Positions 51,770 to 59,775 of a DNA stretch of 64,000 nucleotides are shown one piece after another. The first letter of the stretch is position 1. The number at the start of each line of letters is the position of its first letter. Origin of the DNA: a virus; IMG/VR virus record IMGVR_UViG_3300023083_000001, positions 140,199-204,198 of that record; one strand, 5' to 3'. The position numbers and the translations under genes are program-made. The notes under the pieces are model-generated. The model saw only the letters and a program-made list of their open reading frames with translations. It did not search any database and was not told the origin of the DNA.

Positions 51770-52762
51770 ATGTCTGATCTTATCGCTGCACGTACCCGTA
51801 CTCTTCGTTTCATCGCTTGCGGCGGCACCGCGATTAACTTGCTGCGTAACTATCGTGACAATAAGCCGAAAGATTCTGATGCGTTGTCAGAAGAGCACTA
51901 CAGCTATGTCGATACTTCGATCGCTAACCTCAAAGGTGTGTCGAACGACGAAGTGTATCTGCTGCAAGGCGTGGACGGTTCGGGTTCCGATCGTCCGAAG
52001 AACGCCAAGGCCATCAAGACTGCGTTGCCTGAAATCATGGTCAAGCACGGCGCCGCTGATTTCAACATCGTGATCTTCTCGGCAGCAGGCGGCACTGGTT
52101 CGGTTGCAGGTCCAATGATCTTGGAACACCTGCTGGGTGACAAGAAGAACGCCATCGCAATCGTGATCGGCAGTCACGACAGCCTCAAGCGCACTACCAA
52201 CACCATCGGCACGCTACAAGGTCTGGAAGCCGCCGTGGCCCGTCTGGGTCGTCCCATCGTAATGCACTACAAAGAAAACGAACTGGACAAACCACATGCG
52301 GTCAACAACCGTGGTCCTCAGTTCGTGATGCAGACCGTGTCCATGCTGACCTCCGGCAAGAACGATCACCTGGACAGTGCAGACGTCAACAACCTGTTCA
52401 ACTTCCACACGGTTACACACCATGCGCCATCCCTGGCGATGTTGAACGTTTACGCAAACGCAGAACAACTGACCGAGAAAGTCAAAGCACCCATCGCGTT
52501 CGCCGCTTTGGTGCGTGACAGCGAAGAAGTAGTCCCTCAGCTCGGCCCGGATTACGACACTGTCGGTTATCTGCCATCGTCCAAGACCGCATACGACAAC
52601 TCGTTCTACTTCGTGGTGACCACCGACGCATTGGCCGGCGTGTTCACTGAACTGAACAGTAAGCGTGAAAACGCAACCAAGCAGCAGAAAGTCCAGGCCA
52701 AGACCACCAGTCTGTTGGGTGGCGACACCAAGCATGACGAAGACACCGGCCTGGTGTTCTAA
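51770..52762 (+). CDS. phuZ: PhuZ-type phage tubulin (spindle protein)
   Basis: 330 aa, ATG 51770 with TTAGGAG upstream; PhuZ of relatives is about 315 aa. The tubulin/FtsZ signature loop reads AAGGTGSVAG, with GGTGSV at 107-112. The N-terminal nucleotide-binding strand is RFIACGGTAINLL (13-25). HLDSADVNNLFNF (200-212) has the acidic residues of the loop that completes the neighbouring subunit's GTP site. The C-terminus is acidic and flexible (GGDTKHDEDTGLVF), like the PhuZ tail that links subunits along the filament. PhuZ forms a bipolar spindle that centres and turns the phage nucleus and delivers capsids to it. Codons are strongly biased. The gene ends at its own hairpin. Confidence 0.9.
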   Translation: MSDLIAARTRTLRFIACGGTAINLLRNYRDNKPKDSDALSEEHYSYVDTSIANLKGVSNDEVYLLQGVDGSGSDRPKNAKAIKTALPEIMVKHGAADFNIVIFSAAGGTGSVAGPMILEHLLGDKKNAIAIVIGSHDSLKRTTNTIGTLQGLEAAVARLGRPIVMHYKENELDKPHAVNNRGPQFVMQTVSMLTSGKNDHLDSADVNNLFNFHTVTHHAPSLAMLNVYANAEQLTEKVKAPIAFAALVRDSEEVVPQLGPDYDTVGYLPSSKTAYDNSFYFVVTTDALAGVFTELNSKRENATKQQKVQAKTTSLLGGDTKHDEDTGLVF

Positions 52763-52785: not shown

Positions 52786-52813
52786 TACATAGGGCGGAAA
52801 CGCCCTATGTATG
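52786..52813 (+). terminator. Hairpin terminator with TATG end
   Basis: TACATAGGGCG (52786-52796) pairs with CGCCCTATGTA (52801-52811) around GAAA, ending GTATG. Confidence 0.8.
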
Positions 52814-52841
52814 CCCTTCCACCAAGAAAGAGTATTGAATC

Positions 52842-53054
52842 ATGACTAACATGATGTTTGTTTGCGACACCTGTAACAACGTAGATAGTTTACGTGTGAG
52901 TAGTAGTAACCACGAAGGCTTCAAATGTTATCGCTGCCAACACGGTCACTGGCACGGGCTATTCCCGGAAGAAACCTACGACCCGTATCAGCACTTTGTT
53001 GAGAACCGGGTAAACCGAAACTTTAACGAGCATGGAGAACCGTCATTTGGTTAA
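52842..53054 (+). CDS. Zinc-ribbon protein, 70 aa
   Basis: ATG 52842 with AAAGAG upstream. CDTCNN (residues 8-13) and CYRCQHGHWH (29-38) give two CxxC pairs 21 residues apart, with extra His, the layout of a zinc ribbon. The rest is polar and aromatic. It is a single gene with its own terminator, directly after phuZ. Zinc ribbons of this size often act in transcription or bind host proteins; the partner is unknown. Confidence 0.75.
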   Translation: MTNMMFVCDTCNNVDSLRVSSSNHEGFKCYRCQHGHWHGLFPEETYDPYQHFVENRVNRNFNEHGEPSFG

Positions 53055-53073
53055 TACCTCGAAAGAAATTCGT

Positions 53074-53109
53074 AGGGAGTCTGTGACTCCCTGTAGTCGG
53101 ATTTTCTTT
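53074..53109 (+). terminator. Hairpin terminator with T-rich tail
   Basis: AGGGAGT (53074-53080) pairs with ACTCCCT (53086-53092), followed by a TTTTCTTTTG tail. Confidence 0.7.
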
Positions 53110-53226
53110 TGTAGCTTATAGATTCATCGTCGAAAGGACGAACGAGGCGTCTACATGCACTACAGGAGCTTACGACCGTATTTACTTACAAAATGGCCTA
53201 ATCATGTACAGAGGTTGAGGTCAACT

Positions 53227-53595
53227 ATGCAAGACACCCCATTCTACATCGTGGACATATCGGAGTTGATTAACCGAGTGTCCCGAGGTGACCGGTTCCC
53301 ACCGGCGATATACGAAACGTGGATAGCTAATAAGTACACTAAAAACTGGGGTGTTCCATGTGTCAGTACCACGTTACTGGACATGGACCCAACGAGCATA
53401 AGAACGTTCTCGGGTAACCGGGAGCAAATTGTAATGAACGCACAAGAGCAAGGCGTGAATCCGATAGACTTTCTACCGGCACCTGATCAATTGTGGCATG
53501 ATGAACGCGGCATATGGCTGCTTGTAAAAGATAGCTATCTGCTGATGGGAGACGGCCGTGCAATTAAGAAACTGTGGCGAAATCTGTATTCTTGA
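53227..53595 (+). CDS. Array protein 1 (diverged small family), about 122 aa
   Basis: First of ten overlapping small genes. The start could be ATG 53155 (GAGG upstream) or ATG 53227 (MQDTPFYIVDISEL, GAGGT upstream). The latter fits the family layout: a first strand ending in IVDIS, a polar middle with a Pro-rich bend, then a C-terminal strand pair (GIWLLVKDSYLLMGDG). It overlaps the next gene. Function unknown. Confidence 0.6.
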   Translation: MQDTPFYIVDISELINRVSRGDRFPPAIYETWIANKYTKNWGVPCVSTTLLDMDPTSIRTFSGNREQIVMNAQEQGVNPIDFLPAPDQLWHDERGIWLLVKDSYLLMGDGRAIKKLWRNLYS

Positions 53596-54010
53596 TACTA
53601 ATGAGATCGTTGCTTCAGCATTCAGGGATCTGAAGAAGCATAATGAACATCTGGACCGAGCGGACCGGGAACATCTGACAAACGTGATCGCCGATATCTT
53701 TGACGACCACATCACCGTCAACATGTACTGGACCAAGACAGGGACTCATCCAGATGCGGACCGTTATCTTGATAAGCTTGAAAAACTCATCAAGAAGCAT
53801 CCAAGGTCTTACGAACTGATTGAAGATATCCGCGACAAGATCGACGAGTTATTGATGAACGTGGTGAGGCTGCCGACTTGGCATGAAATACACGTCAGAA
53901 TCCGGGGGTCCAATATCCAGTTGGAGTTGGGTCAAGATTACCGAATTACCGACTGGATGAAAACCCATGCTAAGGAATACCGCATCGCCGCTGAAATTCG
54001 AGACTGGTAG
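53558..54010 (+). CDS. Array protein 2, 150 aa
   Basis: ATG 53558 lies inside the end of protein 1 (38-base overlap). Layout: strand ICILDTNEI, long charged helices (HNEHLDRADREHLTNVIADIFDDH; DRYLDKLEKLIKKHPRSYELIEDI), then a strand pair HEIHVRIRGSNIQLELGQ. This is the same order as its neighbours. It overlaps protein 3 by 44 bases. No match to a known domain. Confidence 0.6.
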   Translation: MQLRNCGEICILDTNEIVASAFRDLKKHNEHLDRADREHLTNVIADIFDDHITVNMYWTKTGTHPDADRYLDKLEKLIKKHPRSYELIEDIRDKIDELLMNVVRLPTWHEIHVRIRGSNIQLELGQDYRITDWMKTHAKEYRIAAEIRDW

Positions 54011-54506
54011 TACCTTGTTGTTGGACATCACCGAATTCCTGACGCGATTCCGAAAGCAGATGGAAGAAGATGAGTGGGATGAGTTCAAACTCATTTGGAG
54101 GTCCAGAGAGATACTGCTCGAGTTCGCCCGTAACCTGTACTCCAGAGAAGAATCGATCTACGGCACTGCCAAGAACATCGCGGGTAGTCGTAAGTGTTTT
54201 CTTAACTGGTTGTGTTTGGGGAGCGAGTTGGACTTTGCAGTGCGTGAACATCTGTTGGATAACGCACCGGAAGGTTCGGTCGTGACAGAGATTGATCTGG
54301 TCTTTGACAAACCCCACCTACTCATTAGACATCATGTCCCGAGAACTGAAGATGAACCAGGATTTGAAAGATATATTGAAAGATGCCGTCGGGAAGGGGA
54401 AACTATCCATCCAGAAGTCGACAAGCAATTGCGCTTCTTCCGATCTCTTGGATCGCCCGGAGCATTCGTACTTGATCGTCGACGTTACCGGTCTCCAATT
54501 GACTAA
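53967..54506 (+). CDS. Array protein 3, 179 aa
   Basis: ATG 53967 inside protein 2. Strand TLLLDITEFL, then acidic helices (RKQMEEDEWDEFKLIWRSREILLEFARNLYSREE), and a C-terminal strand pair (VVTEIDLVFDKPHLLIRHHV). After that a charged tail of about 60 residues overlaps the start of protein 4, which may mean the true stop of the domain is earlier. Function unknown. Confidence 0.55.
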   Translation: MLRNTASPLKFETGSTLLLDITEFLTRFRKQMEEDEWDEFKLIWRSREILLEFARNLYSREESIYGTAKNIAGSRKCFLNWLCLGSELDFAVREHLLDNAPEGSVVTEIDLVFDKPHLLIRHHVPRTEDEPGFERYIERCRREGETIHPEVDKQLRFFRSLGSPGAFVLDRRRYRSPID

Positions 54507-54792
54507 GGTCAGCGATGAAGTGTTGGTTGATCAGGGGGTTATTCTCAGAGCAGCCTTGTTGTACGAGTTTTACGATGTTGATACAGAGTGGAAGGCGTTG
54601 TGCGCCAAGACGCCTCCAGATTGTGATGAGATGTTCGATGTGGAAGAAACACTGAACACCTGGTTCTCCAATCAGATAGAAGGTATCAGTCTGCGGTTTG
54701 AGTTCATTACCGCGATGAGGCCTTACTATCCATCGGATGTTGTGGTGATGGGTGACTTTGTATTAATCGAAATGACTGAAGGCGAAGACTGA
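54334..54792 (+). CDS. Array protein 4, about 152 aa
   Basis: Start uncertain: ATG 54334, or ATG 54352 with a weak GAGA. The overlap with protein 3 is about 170 bases at most. Strand HSYLIVDVTGLQL, then a helix (LRAALLYEFYDVDTEWKALCA) and a strand pair (SLRFEFITAMRPYYPSDVVVMGDFVLIEM). The same strand-helix-strand layout is kept. The acidic end (TEGED) precedes a GAGGTG ribosome site for the next gene. Confidence 0.55.
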   Translation: MSRELKMNQDLKDILKDAVGKGKLSIQKSTSNCASSDLLDRPEHSYLIVDVTGLQLTKVSDEVLVDQGVILRAALLYEFYDVDTEWKALCAKTPPDCDEMFDVEETLNTWFSNQIEGISLRFEFITAMRPYYPSDVVVMGDFVLIEMTEGED

Positions 54793-54800
54793 GGTGTTTG

Positions 54801-55259
54801 ATGAGTCGTGATGACGATACTGTCGATTTATATACACCGGCTCATCCACGATTACCTTTACGGGTAGGCGGTCGAGAACCGGTGTTGATGAGGATCGATA
54901 CTGAGATAGCCGTTGCAGTGCAGAGTCTGACCGACTACTTCGATATATCGAAACACAACAACGTAATAGAAGGAACATTCAGTATCCTCCTGATAGCTTT
55001 GTTGCTTGAGCAAAGTGACGATGCGGTGGATGCGTTTGAAAGGATTATTACGCAGAATAGAGTCAAACCCAGGATGGACGCTGACAAACTCTGGGGTGAA
55101 TTCATGACCCTGATCTCGTTTTTCATCGATGTGTATGAAAACGATACGGTGTTGTTGGAAGAGCTGGAGATTTTATTACCCAGCGAAGTGCGTATTTTCC
55201 CTGAAGAAATATTTCAAGTCCGCTGGTCCAAAGGCGGCGACTACTTACTGATACAATAG
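54801..55259 (+). CDS. Array protein 5, about 152 aa
   Basis: ATG 54801 with GAGGTG upstream, 8 bases after protein 4. Strand PVLMRIDTEI, helices (TDYFDISKHNNVIEGTFSILLIALLLEQSDD; DKLWGEFMTLISFFIDVYENDTVLLEELE), then EVRIFPEEIFQVRWSKGGDYLLIQ. The GGDYLLI end is nearly GDFVLIE in protein 4. Function unknown. Confidence 0.6.
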   Translation: MSRDDDTVDLYTPAHPRLPLRVGGREPVLMRIDTEIAVAVQSLTDYFDISKHNNVIEGTFSILLIALLLEQSDDAVDAFERIITQNRVKPRMDADKLWGEFMTLISFFIDVYENDTVLLEELEILLPSEVRIFPEEIFQVRWSKGGDYLLIQ

Positions 55260-55267
55260 GAGGCGGT

Positions 55268-55681
55268 GTGAACAACCCACAGCTATTCATCGTCCCCATC
55301 GATAGACAGATGGTGGTGAGTCTTGGAACTGTCTGCAATCACCTACATTCTACTCACGACCTGTCGTTCGAATCTCTGGACAGTATCCAACATGCGTTCA
55401 TCGTAGCGTTGGCTGAATACTGGATCATGAGTGATTGGACAGGTCTGGAGTTCTTCCTTGAGTGTCTCAAGGAGTTGGAAGACGGGATGCTTAAAAGTCT
55501 GTGCGAAGTAATGATCAGACAGATGGCCGATGGCGATGTCCGGTACTACCCAAGGATGCGCGATGGGATCTACTCTCTGAAAGATGAGACCAAGTACATC
55601 ACTCGTGGTTTTTACATCCAGGAAGGTAAAGTGGATGCTAGATCTCGCGCGCTGGCAGTTACGATTAGTTATGCAAAGTAA
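55268..55681 (+). CDS. Array protein 6, 137 aa
   Basis: GTG 55268 after AGGAGG (8-base gap from protein 5). Strand QLFIVPIDRQMVV, two acidic helices (FESLDSIQHAFIVALAEYWIM; LEFFLECLKELEDGMLKSLCEVMIRQM), then a strand-rich end (GDVRYYPRMRDGIYSLKDET; GFYIQEGKVDA). The middle is the clearest example of the shared helical block. Function unknown. Confidence 0.6.
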   Translation: MNNPQLFIVPIDRQMVVSLGTVCNHLHSTHDLSFESLDSIQHAFIVALAEYWIMSDWTGLEFFLECLKELEDGMLKSLCEVMIRQMADGDVRYYPRMRDGIYSLKDETKYITRGFYIQEGKVDARSRALAVTISYAK

Positions 55682-55693
55682 TTCGAGGGCAAC

Positions 55694-56047
55694 ATGATTG
55701 AACATGAGCGCTATGTATTGTCGATCCAACCCTGCCATGGCGTTACTGATGACGCCATGGCGTCTATGCTGTCAAGCTGGGTAACGGGTACAGTTCACTC
55801 GCAACAATGGCTGACCCAAGATGCTATCCATGCGTTAATTACTAACCATCCGCTCAAAGGTTGTGATATCGAGAAGATGGCAGTGAGCGTACTGGATGCA
55901 TTGGACGGTTGCGGTCTTTACAGTCACCTGCTGATGAAAGTCGAGGATTTGGATCTGGTGACCTGTCAAGTCAAAGGTAACCTGGCGTACCTGGAACTGG
56001 AGTGGAAGAAGCGAAATGAATCTGCCTATAGTTACCCAACAGCGTAG
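55694..56047 (+). CDS. Array protein 7, 117 aa
   Basis: ATG 55694 with GAGGG upstream. Strand RYVLSIQPC, helices (DAMASMLSSWVTG; IHALITNHPLKGCDIEKMAVSVLDALDG), then LLMKVEDLDLVTCQVKGNLAYLELEWKK. The same family layout, with the shortest linker. It overlaps protein 8 by 32 bases. Function unknown. Confidence 0.6.
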   Translation: MIEHERYVLSIQPCHGVTDDAMASMLSSWVTGTVHSQQWLTQDAIHALITNHPLKGCDIEKMAVSVLDALDGCGLYSHLLMKVEDLDLVTCQVKGNLAYLELEWKKRNESAYSYPTA

Positions 56048-56390
56048 AAAGCCGATCATCTTTTCGTTAAGAGATGATAAGCTCAATCGGTTCATCTCAA
56101 CGATTGATCTGGATAACCATCTTCGAATCCTGGCGGGAATGTTAGAGGACTTCGTTCCACTGTTCCCGTTCTCCACCTTCATGCTGGATTGGCCGCCATC
56201 CAAGATGTACCTCAAAGGGGCGGCTAAGGATTCCCCACTCAAAACCCTGTACGATGTTTTACAGGGACACTTATCCGAGAGTGGCTACCCAGTCACTGTA
56301 CTCAGCACCATGGTGGTCCTGCATCATGAACCGTTCGACACCACCCTCATCGAAGCCTCGAGTACAGCTCGAGTCTGTTCTCTGCACTAA
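56016..56390 (+). CDS. Array protein 8, 124 aa
   Basis: ATG 56016 inside protein 7, with GGAAGAAG upstream. Strand KPIIFSLRDDKLNRF, helix (TIDLDNHLRILAGMLEDFVPLFPF), a second helix (LKTLYDVLQGHLSESG) and a strand VTVLSTMVVLHHEPFD. It overlaps protein 9 by about 65 bases. Function unknown. Confidence 0.55.
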   Translation: MNLPIVTQQRRKPIIFSLRDDKLNRFISTIDLDNHLRILAGMLEDFVPLFPFSTFMLDWPPSKMYLKGAAKDSPLKTLYDVLQGHLSESGYPVTVLSTMVVLHHEPFDTTLIEASSTARVCSLH

Positions 56391-56757
56391 CTCCGAATAC
56401 GTCGTTATTGAAATCACCCGTGAAGTCAGGCGTTTCATCGACGCGGTTGATGGTTACGTGGAAGACCTCAGCTACAACATCGAAGGGATCATCAAAGCCT
56501 ACAACCATTACCGCCACAGGAAGACCAACATCCGTGACCTAGATGACCTGGTTCCTGAGCTGCTGCATTCAAGCTTCGTCAAGAACGTAGAAGATGCAGA
56601 GAAGATTGCCAGCATAGCGCTTTACACATTCTACCCAGATATTGCAGCTGCGATTGTAGCCCATGGGTATTCCGCTGGACTTATCCATATGGTGAAAGTT
56701 CACACAACCCGTGATACACGTATGTCAAGTTGCGTATTGCTGCTGAAAGTTATCTAA
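56326..56757 (+). CDS. Array protein 9, about 143 aa
   Basis: The start chosen is ATG 56326; the frame extends to 56254 but without a ribosome site, and the true start may be further in. Strand EYVVIEITREVRRF matches the opening of the other members. Helical middle (AYNHYRHRKTNIRDLDDLVPELLHSSFVKNVED; IASIALYTFYPDIAAAIVAHG) and a strand pair (LIHMVKVHTTRDTRMSSCVLLLKVI). Function unknown. Confidence 0.55.
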   Translation: MNRSTPPSSKPRVQLESVLCTNSEYVVIEITREVRRFIDAVDGYVEDLSYNIEGIIKAYNHYRHRKTNIRDLDDLVPELLHSSFVKNVEDAEKIASIALYTFYPDIAAAIVAHGYSAGLIHMVKVHTTRDTRMSSCVLLLKVI

Positions 56758-56766
56758 CCGGAGAAG

Positions 56767-57105
56767 ATGATGTCAAAACCATGTATCGTGGGTTACTGCC
56801 CCGAACTCTACGATGCTCTCCAGACGGTGGCGCATCAAGTACTCCCTTACGAACCAATTGACGAGTGGCCACCCCACGCTCGCCAATACAATGAAGAAGA
56901 CCGGGACAAGCTGATCCGTCAGTTACTCCTAGGTCTTACAGATTCCGAAAAGTGTGACAGGGAACTGGAACACTACATCAACGTCCTCTTCGAGTCGATC
57001 AGCGATGATACCTTGAGGGGGTTGATCGAATTTGGCGCCATCGAGAAACTGATCATCAACGATCGCGGCTATTATTTGGCCGTTGAAGGGGTAAGCTTTT
57101 TATGA
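56767..57105 (+). CDS. Array protein 10, 112 aa
   Basis: ATG 56767 (or 56770) after GGAGAAG, 9 bases from protein 9. Strand KPCIVGYCPEL, helices (YNEEDRDKLIRQLLLGLTDSEKCDRELEHYINVLFESI), then a strand pair (AIEKLIINDRGYYLAVEGVSF). The stop overlaps the next ATG. The last member of the array. Function unknown. Confidence 0.6.
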   Translation: MMSKPCIVGYCPELYDALQTVAHQVLPYEPIDEWPPHARQYNEEDRDKLIRQLLLGLTDSEKCDRELEHYINVLFESISDDTLRGLIEFGAIEKLIINDRGYYLAVEGVSFL

Positions 57106-57494
57106 AACTCATTTCCACCAACATCGGCAAGACGATGACGTTCCAAACGTTTTCAGGTATCAAGTACAGCAACCAGAAATTGGTCGCTCTGCTTGACGCC
57201 ACGACGGTTGAAGCGTTAGGTCAGGATCCTATCGCAGGTCATATCCAAAACCTGCCGTACATGAAGGATCCAAAGCCGGGTGCCTACACCGATTACCTGT
57301 ACGCCAAGTTCACTGACGCTGACGGTACTCCTCTGTACCTCGGCATCCCGTGGACGGATGAAGATTCCATTGTTCAGAACACTACGCCCAACTACGTCAT
57401 CACGTTGGTCGGTCCTGAACAAGCGCAGGTTGACTCGTTGAAGTCCATGATGATCGCCAATGGCATCGAGAACTTCACGATCAAAGCCGTATGA
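57102..57494 (+). CDS. Hypothetical protein, 130 aa
   Basis: ATG 57102 overlaps the array's last stop (ATGA). Unlike the array it is strand-rich with turn residues (SGIKYSNQKLVALLDATT; NYVITLVGPEQAQVDSLKSMM), has no acidic helical block and uses preferred codons, so I treat it as separate. It ends at a terminator with a T-tract. Function unknown. Confidence 0.65.
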   Translation: MKLISTNIGKTMTFQTFSGIKYSNQKLVALLDATTVEALGQDPIAGHIQNLPYMKDPKPGAYTDYLYAKFTDADGTPLYLGIPWTDEDSIVQNTTPNYVITLVGPEQAQVDSLKSMMIANGIENFTIKAV

Positions 57495-57503
57495 CATACA
57501 GCT

Positions 57504-57560
57504 CACATCCCGCCTATTACAGGTCAGGGATGTGGGTCGTTATGCCCTACTGTTTTTTTT
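57504..57560 (+). terminator. Hairpin terminator with long loop and T-tract
   Basis: CACATCCC (57504-57511) pairs with GGGATGTG (57527-57534), then TTATGCCCTACTG and eight T. Confidence 0.75.
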
Positions 57561-57612: not shown

Positions 57613-59775
57613 ATGGCCGCATTGACTAACCCATTCCTTCTTCCGGTTGAGCAGTATCAACGGGACATCGATATCAAGAAAGGTTATCTCCAACAAGTTG
57701 CTAAGTATCTGTCCTGCGCGCTGAAGAAGCCGTACAAGCAATGTCTGGAGTTTGTACTCAACGAAGTGAAGGACCGCAACAGCGAGTTCCGCTTCCGTGA
57801 TCCAAAGATGTTGCAGTTGATCCGCAAAGGGGTTGGTGAGCGAGTTCAGGACGAAACTACCTTTCTGGATTACGTTGACGCTATTATCGACACCGGTCGT
57901 ATTGTTTCCCCCTCGCTTGTGGTCTACGAGCGTCCTGAGGTTGAGAAGTCTGTAACCGCTGAATGGCAAGATGAGAACATCAAAGCTCGTAAGCGTTCAA
58001 AGACTGCAATGTTTGAATTGAAACAACTCGGCGAATTGATGAAGTCGGCTTTGGCTGACTATGACCAGAACGCCCGTAAGATCCGTATCAACTCCGTGTC
58101 GGGTATGCGCGGCTTTGAAGGTAACCCACTGTTTCTGGCATCGGGTCACTCCAGCCTGACATCGATGTGTCGTGCTGCTGCTGGGTACGGTAACGGTACG
58201 GTTGAGCGTTTCCTGGCAGGCAGTCGTCATTATCACACGCCAGAGATTGCCAAAGCTAACATCATGGCCATGATCACCATCGAAGACAAAGCTCGTTTCC
58301 TGGCTGTGATCTCCCGCTACAACCTGGTGTATCCAACAGTTGAAGATGTGGTTTCGATGATCCGTCGGTCTACCGACCTGTACTGGGAAACTCCAGACGA
58401 GATGGATCTGATCGAAGAGATGGTCAAAGGCATGGATCAACTGGAACGGGCTATCGTCTGTTATTCAGGCGACATGTTCCACTTGGCTAAACTCAATCCA
58501 GAGATTGTGCGCGAGTTGTTTGGCGAGATGATTGCCATCAACATCGAAGACATGGATGACGTGGACACTGCGGCTATCCTCAAAGGTCTGGACAGTACAG
58601 AGAAAGCGTACATCAACGCCCTGTGTGCTAACGTGCTTAAAGGTACGACCCTCAAACAAGTCCAGGCAAACAATCCAGCGGGCTGGCAGACGATCGGCAA
58701 GACAGCCCAACGCTTTATATGGGCCTGTCAGAAGTATCATCAGCTAATCAATACACTGTTCGCTCCGATGCACTTGCCGCCCACTGTGGCGTCTTTGAGA
58801 AGCATCCAGCGCCGTGTCTGTCTGGCAGCTGATACTGACTCCTCTATCTTCACTACTGAGTATTGGGTGGAGTGGTACACCGGACATCTGAAACGCGGAG
58901 AAGTCGAAGACCGCATTTGGTATCTGGCGACTTACATGGTTTGTCAGTGCATTGCTCACTCACTCGCCATGTTGTCTGCTAACGTTGGTGTTGAGCGTTC
59001 ACAGATCTTCCGTCTGGCCATGAAGAACGAGTATGCGTTCCCGCAGTTCGCACTCACCAACTTGGCTAAGCACTACTATTCTACCATGTCGATGCGTGAA
59101 GGTAACGTATACGACGAGTTGGAGTTGGAGATCAAAGGTGTGGAGCTACGTGGGTCAACGGTACCTAAGCACATCTTGAAAGCTGCCGAAGACCTGATGC
59201 GCAATACTTTGCACGCTATTGACCGGGGTGAGAAACTCAACGCCGGCAAGGTATTGGCATTGGTAGCAAGTTATGAATTGGACACGGTGAAGTCGATCAA
59301 GCGCGGGGAATACACTTACCTGCGCAGTGCTCAGATCAAACCTGACAGTCCGAAGATGCCGTACCACGAACTGTGGCAGGATGTGTTTGGTCCTAAATAC
59401 GGCATGAGTATCAACCCACCGTACCCATGTGTGAAAGTCACTACTGAACTGGGCAACAAAACCCAACTCAAGGAATGGCTGGACAACATGGAAGATAAAG
59501 AGCTGGCTGGCCGTATGGCAGCATGGCTCATCAAGTACAACCGTAAGGACCTGCCAACTGTCTTCTTGCCAACCATGGCGATCAAAGGCAAAGGTCTTCC
59601 TCTGGAGATTCAAGATGCTGCGAATGTTCGTAAACTGGCCTACCAGATCAACTCCGGTTTCTATCGCATCCTCGAATCCATGGGTCTACACATCGTCGAC
59701 CGCAACAACTATCGACTGGTGTATGACTTTCTAAGACTCGACGATTCGGTCGATGCACCGGAGGTGGTTGTATGA
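57613..59775 (+). CDS. DNA polymerase, family-B-like, C-terminal (motif B/C) part
   Basis: 720 aa, ATG 57613 with GAGGAA upstream. Motif C is AADTDSSIFTTEYW, with D407-T-D409-S. Motif B is KIRINSVSG (156-164), like KxxxNSxYG. Further on, MKNEYAFPQFALTNLAKHYY stands in the place of the KxY/thumb region. No motif A (DxxSLYPS) and no 3'-5' exonuclease acids occur in the 155 residues before motif B, and motifs B and C are about 245 residues apart, far more than the usual 50-80. So this is probably one part of a split enzyme, the rest being encoded elsewhere. It replicates the genome inside the phage nucleus. It follows the small-gene array and ends in ATGA with the next gene. Confidence 0.75.
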   Translation: MAALTNPFLLPVEQYQRDIDIKKGYLQQVAKYLSCALKKPYKQCLEFVLNEVKDRNSEFRFRDPKMLQLIRKGVGERVQDETTFLDYVDAIIDTGRIVSPSLVVYERPEVEKSVTAEWQDENIKARKRSKTAMFELKQLGELMKSALADYDQNARKIRINSVSGMRGFEGNPLFLASGHSSLTSMCRAAAGYGNGTVERFLAGSRHYHTPEIAKANIMAMITIEDKARFLAVISRYNLVYPTVEDVVSMIRRSTDLYWETPDEMDLIEEMVKGMDQLERAIVCYSGDMFHLAKLNPEIVRELFGEMIAINIEDMDDVDTAAILKGLDSTEKAYINALCANVLKGTTLKQVQANNPAGWQTIGKTAQRFIWACQKYHQLINTLFAPMHLPPTVASLRSIQRRVCLAADTDSSIFTTEYWVEWYTGHLKRGEVEDRIWYLATYMVCQCIAHSLAMLSANVGVERSQIFRLAMKNEYAFPQFALTNLAKHYYSTMSMREGNVYDELELEIKGVELRGSTVPKHILKAAEDLMRNTLHAIDRGEKLNAGKVLALVASYELDTVKSIKRGEYTYLRSAQIKPDSPKMPYHELWQDVFGPKYGMSINPPYPCVKVTTELGNKTQLKEWLDNMEDKELAGRMAAWLIKYNRKDLPTVFLPTMAIKGKGLPLEIQDAANVRKLAYQINSGFYRILESMGLHIVDRNNYRLVYDFLRLDDSVDAPEVVV

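Follow-up and report, generated by a model that had tools for sequence, protein, structure and literature searches.

The window analysed here, a 64,000-nucleotide stretch of a virus record of 258,357 bases (G000), carries a row of ten small plus-strand open reading frames of 112–179 codons (positions 53155–57105), raising the questions of (i) whether these are ten separate genes or the members of one family and (ii) what a phage would use them for. The record has the markers of a nucleus-forming jumbo phage (Chimalliviridae), namely the tubulin gene phuZ, the ChmA shell protein and a phiKZ-type DNA polymerase, and the genes follow each other in the order phuZ, zinc ribbon, g1–g10, g11 and DNA polymerase (Table 1). 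An initial annotation, made from the sequence alone, had placed the ten-gene array between the zinc-ribbon gene that follows phuZ and the polymerase gene. The ten reading frames are present where it put them and have syntenic orthologs in relatives, and the upstream order holds, but an eleventh gene, g11, intervenes before the polymerase. That annotation probably set the 5′ ends of g1, g4, g5 and g9 too far upstream; their likely starts are 53227, 54352, 54801 and 56326.

Table 1 Features of the array locus (positions in the window)
Feature	Position	Strand	Orthologs	Remarks
phuZ (phage tubulin), upstream landmark	51770–52762	+		phrog_4733, E 2e-83
Terminator-like hairpin after phuZ	52786–52811	+		11-bp stem, z −5.8; similar after phuZ in most relatives examined
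Zinc-ribbon gene, outside the fold family	52842–53054	+	family in 49 loci	no profile relation to g1–g10
Terminator-like hairpin before the array	53060–53111	+		−24 kcal/mol for the stretch, z −3.9; strong, same place in about 2/3 of loci examined
g1	53155–53595, likely start 53227	+	15 (syntenic)	motif FYIVDISELI
g2, ortholog of phiKZ gp43	53558–54010	+	69	phrog_14023, E 3e-5; phiKZ gp43, E 4e-29
g3	53967–54506	+	15	in best profile pairs g1-g3 and g2-g3
g4	54352–54792 (longest ORF from 54292)	+	37	AF2 model; start inferred from relatives
g5	54801–55259	+	16	near-full-length, in-register profile alignment with g6
g6	55268–55681	+	12	missing in the L002/L003/L005/L006 branch
g7	55694–56047	+	16
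g8	56016–56390	+	18	weak C-terminal match to phiKZ gp47
g9	56326–56757 (longest ORF from 56254)	+	56	AF2 model
g10	56767–57105	+	19
g11, counterpart of phiKZ gp49	57102–57494	+	84	phrog_3235, E 4e-15
Terminator-like hairpin and T run after g11	57501–57560	+		z −3.0; between g11 and the polymerase gene in most loci examined
Family B DNA polymerase, downstream landmark	57613–59775	+		phrog_2927, E 1e-206

A megablast search of the phage collection found no close DNA relatives. Three contigs with polymerases 67–69% identical carry nine of the ten array genes in the same order. We extended the comparison to 79 loci in a wider scan, for which the polymerase query retrieved contigs and a phuZ query returned nothing. 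Iterative profile searches resolved ten separate families, with no reading frame falling into two of them. The families occupy 12–19 loci each, except for g4 (37), g9 (56) and g2 (69), compared with 84 for g11 and 85 for the polymerase; g2 is the most widely conserved member, and its alignment has a C-terminal GxDYRIxDW motif. In close pairs, dN/dS of the array genes lies between 0.03 and 0.41 in every comparison and that of the polymerase between 0.05 and 0.11, ratios that are approximate because the reading frames overlap. We rejected chance reading frames on the grounds of syntenic orthologs and purifying selection: g1–g10 are conserved genes, with a single ortholog apiece per relative in constant order, under purifying selection that is mostly weaker than that on the polymerase. 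Searches of Pfam and PHROG assigned none of the ten to a family whose function is known, and profile searches of the same genome yielded no significant further copy, the best candidate (E 0.009) being for g7.

A row of small hypothetical genes occupies this locus in all named chimalliviruses whose phuZ–polymerase stretch was read, and its place beside the polymerase is kept in phages of Pseudomonas, Erwinia, Klebsiella, Serratia, Proteus and E. coli. The layout at the array locus is family-wide and not particular to the phage analysed here. It is linked to the polymerase and not to phuZ, since the arrays of phiKZ and PhiPA3 adjoin the polymerase and do not have phuZ as direct neighbour. A simple count of reading frames over 61 loci gave 4–16 genes (median 8), a rough measure that drops overlapping frames, so that the window itself scores 8. 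Close relatives have 9, 10 or 11 genes, where the lower number reflects single losses of g6 (in the L002/L003/L005/L006 branch) or g3 (in L037) and the higher number an additional gene between g4 and g5 in L033 and L034. The start of this gene shows the same N-terminal pattern as the array members; we considered it as a duplicate of g4, which is its best match, but the match is insignificant (E 1.7). The proposal that the array grew by duplication gains support, with the qualification that the duplications are old, because orthology holds position by position throughout the close clade. Recent tandem duplication was rejected, as nearly every close relative has a separate ortholog for each gene and the families share no reading frame.

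We generated AF2 models for two of the ten members, g4 and g9, which have deep alignments. The g9 model (pLDDT 83, pTM 0.73) consists of E24-29 H31-42 H52-57 H59-62 H70-81 H88-112 E118-127 E134-142, where DSSP splits the second helix in two, and the core of the g4 model (pLDDT 81, pTM 0.75) of E38-44 H50-57 H61-74 H78-84 H97-122 E125-133 E136-143. Both are confident in the core and have an identical seven-element topology of one strand, four helices, the last of 25–26 residues, and a two-strand β hairpin, which agrees with the layout given in the initial annotation. No sequence or profile similarity is detectable between g4 and g9. Folds that differ from member to member, named in the initial annotation as the outcome that would speak against one layout shared by all ten, are not what these two of ten models show; in the remaining eight members the same order is indicated only by the N-terminal motif and crude propensity profiles. 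Judging from the models, at least two of the ten genes (g4 and g9), and probably most, encode the same compact shape.

Foldseek searches of predicted viral proteins with the g4 and g9 models returned mainly small uncharacterised chimallivirus proteins, often several per genome, with 20 matches common to the two top-50 lists. The top matches are modest (E 1e-3 to 1e-1, TM-scores mostly 0.3–0.6). All four matches in PhiEaH1 (123, 132, 138 and 142 aa) and all four in Eowyn (116, 118, 131 and 153 aa) equal array coding sequences in length, a placement based on equal length and not on accession identity. A structural neighbour of both models, PhiPA3 gp044 (170 aa), is encoded three genes before the polymerase and belongs to the array by number and length. 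Two matches fall elsewhere: a 133-aa protein of FBKp24 has no array coding sequence of equal length, and for a 114-aa match in Ea35-70 the two coding sequences of that size are distant from the array, of which one (gp025) shows the N-terminal pattern of the array members. The structural search of the PDB with the g4 model gave no match (best E 0.26, probability 0.06), and the g4 and g9 profiles found nothing credible among PDB sequences.

In Ea35-70, the genes gp025–gp028 (L102:32804-34402) form a group of four small genes distant from the array. Two of their products, gp025 (114 aa) and gp028 (136 aa), agree in length with structural matches from Agricanvirus phages, and the group may be a second cluster of the same fold.

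Very low identity among the members, as initially described, is borne out by profile–profile comparison, where no single pair among g1–g10 is significant and the best probability is 16%. Taken as a set, the 45 pairs outscore reversed profiles (p 2e-6), block-shuffled profiles (p 7e-8) and profiles of four families without relation to the array, taken from the same loci (p 1e-4), p values that are indicative since the pairs are non-independent and the unrelated control comprises four families only. The set is thereby related above chance against all three controls (p ~1e-4 to 1e-8), the opposite of the null result that the initial annotation had held to be incompatible with its proposal. Alignments are in register in 19 of 43 cases and in 6 of 40 controls; the best pairs are g1-g3, g2-g3, g5-g6 and g4-g6, and g5-g6 aligns over nearly the full length. 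One family after another has, at the mature N-terminus, a hydrophobic strand that closes on an acidic residue and is followed by a helix. Position-specific scoring matrices built with one family left out locate this strand in 33 of 67 proteins; position alone would give a few percent, and the anchors for this test were chosen manually. Array reading frames of distant phages that belong to none of the families outscore control frames for the motif within the first 45 positions (p 3e-9), although their best match does not lie closer to the N-terminus than that of the controls (p 0.33).

For the analysis of gene overlaps, we chose starts by support from relatives and by ribosome-binding sequence. 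The statement that most members overlap the next by 8 to more than 100 bases applies to five of the nine adjacent pairs, by 38, 44, 155, 32 and 65 nt from the best-supported starts, and fails for the other four, which are spaced by 8–12 nt. The 38-nt overlap of g1 and g2 and the 65-nt overlap of g8 and g9 are each kept in five of seven genomes. At g3/g4, 155 nt encode both the end of g3 and the start of g4 (54352–54506), and about 110–170 nt do so in most other relatives checked. Such overlaps are compatible with coupled translation. In the window, strong terminator-like hairpins lie downstream of phuZ, of the zinc-ribbon gene and of g11, although a simple hairpin scanner reports only the first of the three. 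Most relatives examined have hairpins at one or more of the three sites. From this arrangement, g1–g11 look like one transcription unit, whose genes would be co-transcribed.

A short sequence, TATGCC, stands directly 3′ of the hairpin after phuZ (together 52786–52820). It has the same place in L002, L009, L024, L037 and L039, and in L012 the pair follows the zinc ribbon. This combination in several phages may represent a terminator with an attached signal, either promoter-like or for processing.

The last gene of the putative unit, g11, is the counterpart of phiKZ gp49, which is reported to be an SH3-fold interactor of the DNA polymerase (PMC7824862; PMC12571901). It groups with phiKZ gp49, differs in fold from g1–g10 and is unrelated to them: the ten genes have no sequence match to the gp49 SH3-fold family and no profile relation to g11. 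Multi-gene paralog sets are also found in SPN3US, a related giant phage, whose paralog families A and B comprise virion head proteins and, in the case of family B, are largely tandem (PMC5694885). Family B genes differ from the array in length (mostly ~275–500 aa compared with 112–179 aa) and in lying at another genome place and not beside the polymerase, and the array proteins have no Pfam match to pfam12699 (family A).

The hypothetical proteins phiKZ gp43–gp48 and PhiPA3 gp38–gp45 are encoded at the same place before gp49-like and polymerase genes. Our g2 is orthologous to phiKZ gp43 and PhiPA3 gp39, and PhiPA3 gp044, the neighbour of both models, is annotated as similar to phiKZ gp47. These sets differ from the one in the window in having fewer genes and longer g2 counterparts (357 and 337 aa). 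We found no paper that treats them as one family, nor any describing the present array. The phiKZ protein gp47, a likely member of the array family, is presumably Imp2, an accessory import factor of this phage. Two more accessory factors of import into the phage nucleus, Imp4 and Imp5, are named in PMC13282480. The contribution of Imp2, Imp4 and Imp5 is described as depending on the cargo, as would fit a family of diversified adaptors; their gene numbers were not found in our literature search.

How can these observations be combined? If the ten were small genes of separate origin whose simple layout agrees by chance or convergence, the lack of any individually significant profile pair would be expected. 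The identical topology of the g4 and g9 models, the concentration of overlapping structural neighbours in chimalliviruses and at the array locus, and the set-wise profile signal all argue against this, and we consider it very unlikely. The initial annotation had guessed at a counter-defence or host-interaction family under host pressure. In such a counter-defence or host-takeover array, each small protein would bind and block a host factor of its own and diverge in an arms race. Small proteins of very low identity across phages are what such a race would leave, and gene number does vary between 9 and 11 in the close clade, with g6 lost in the L002 branch and g3 in L037. The low dN/dS in every comparison, a location next to the polymerase that stays constant across phages of diverse hosts and the lack of a match to any known-function family run counter to it, making this proposal an unlikely one.

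Assembly of the ten paralogs into one heteromeric complex, perhaps on the polymerase together with the gp49-like protein as part of a replisome or a nucleus-associated particle, with the overlaps fixing stoichiometry, would account for the tight gene overlaps, for the linkage to the polymerase rather than phuZ in phiKZ and PhiPA3, and for the apparent transcription unit shared with the gp49-like polymerase partner (PMC12571901). Loss of single members is tolerated, however, and the hit table of an antisense oligonucleotide (ASO) screen contains phiKZ 049 and 050 and none of 043–048, from a tested subset that the text does not specify (PMC12571901); we regard such a complex as rather improbable.

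We favour an internal role in the phage over counter-defence. Our best overall explanation, to which we assign a probability of roughly 55%, is that the genes are ancient paralogs of the same fold with an adaptor or accessory role. Its descriptive part, one fold and ancient paralogs, is highly probable, and we infer common ancestry of all ten genes. The partner-specific adaptor or accessory role is a tentative assignment, to which we give somewhat less than even odds. According to this explanation, the ten genes would be ancient tandem paralogs, all or mostly of one compact fold, and the set seems characteristic of nucleus-forming phages, fixed upstream of the gp49-like and polymerase genes. 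They would share a transcription unit with the gp49-like gene, and their translation would be coupled. Their products would be small non-catalytic binding proteins, each specialised for a partner of its own, as suggested by the lack of a known-family signature, the small size and the divergence. The fixed core synteny, the purifying selection and the unit shared with the polymerase partner favour a role in the programme of the phage itself, and the proteins might serve its nucleus and replication as cargo-specific import adaptors or replisome accessories.

More speculatively, the array could be a hidden core module beside the polymerase, made of paralogous adaptors whose fold has no counterpart in the PDB. 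It would confer on each phage an individual specificity for nuclear cargo or replication partners, and sequence-based core-genome analyses would miss it because its members diverge fast; we hold this to be doubtful.

Most chimallivirus genes are unassigned, and lists of the core genome depend on sequence search. A module of about eight genes at one fixed location, conserved in shape and divergent in sequence, would be a structural core component of nucleus-forming phages, phiKZ gp43–gp48 and their counterparts would receive their first fold assignment, and the way in which these phages tell their own proteins from others would become directly testable.

Individual genes of the phiKZ and PhiPA3 arrays show further peculiarities. 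Both phiKZ gp43 (L019:6342-7415) and PhiPA3 gp39 (L104:3019-4032) combine a g2-like domain at the N-terminus with a long extension at the C-terminus, which may be a second, diverged copy; checked as a two-domain fusion, phiKZ gp43 gave a single detected g2 domain. The 88-codon array gene PhiPA3 gp041 (L104:4550-4816) is annotated as 2-amino-3-ketobutyrate coenzyme A ligase, for which it is far too short, and the label is probably a misannotation.
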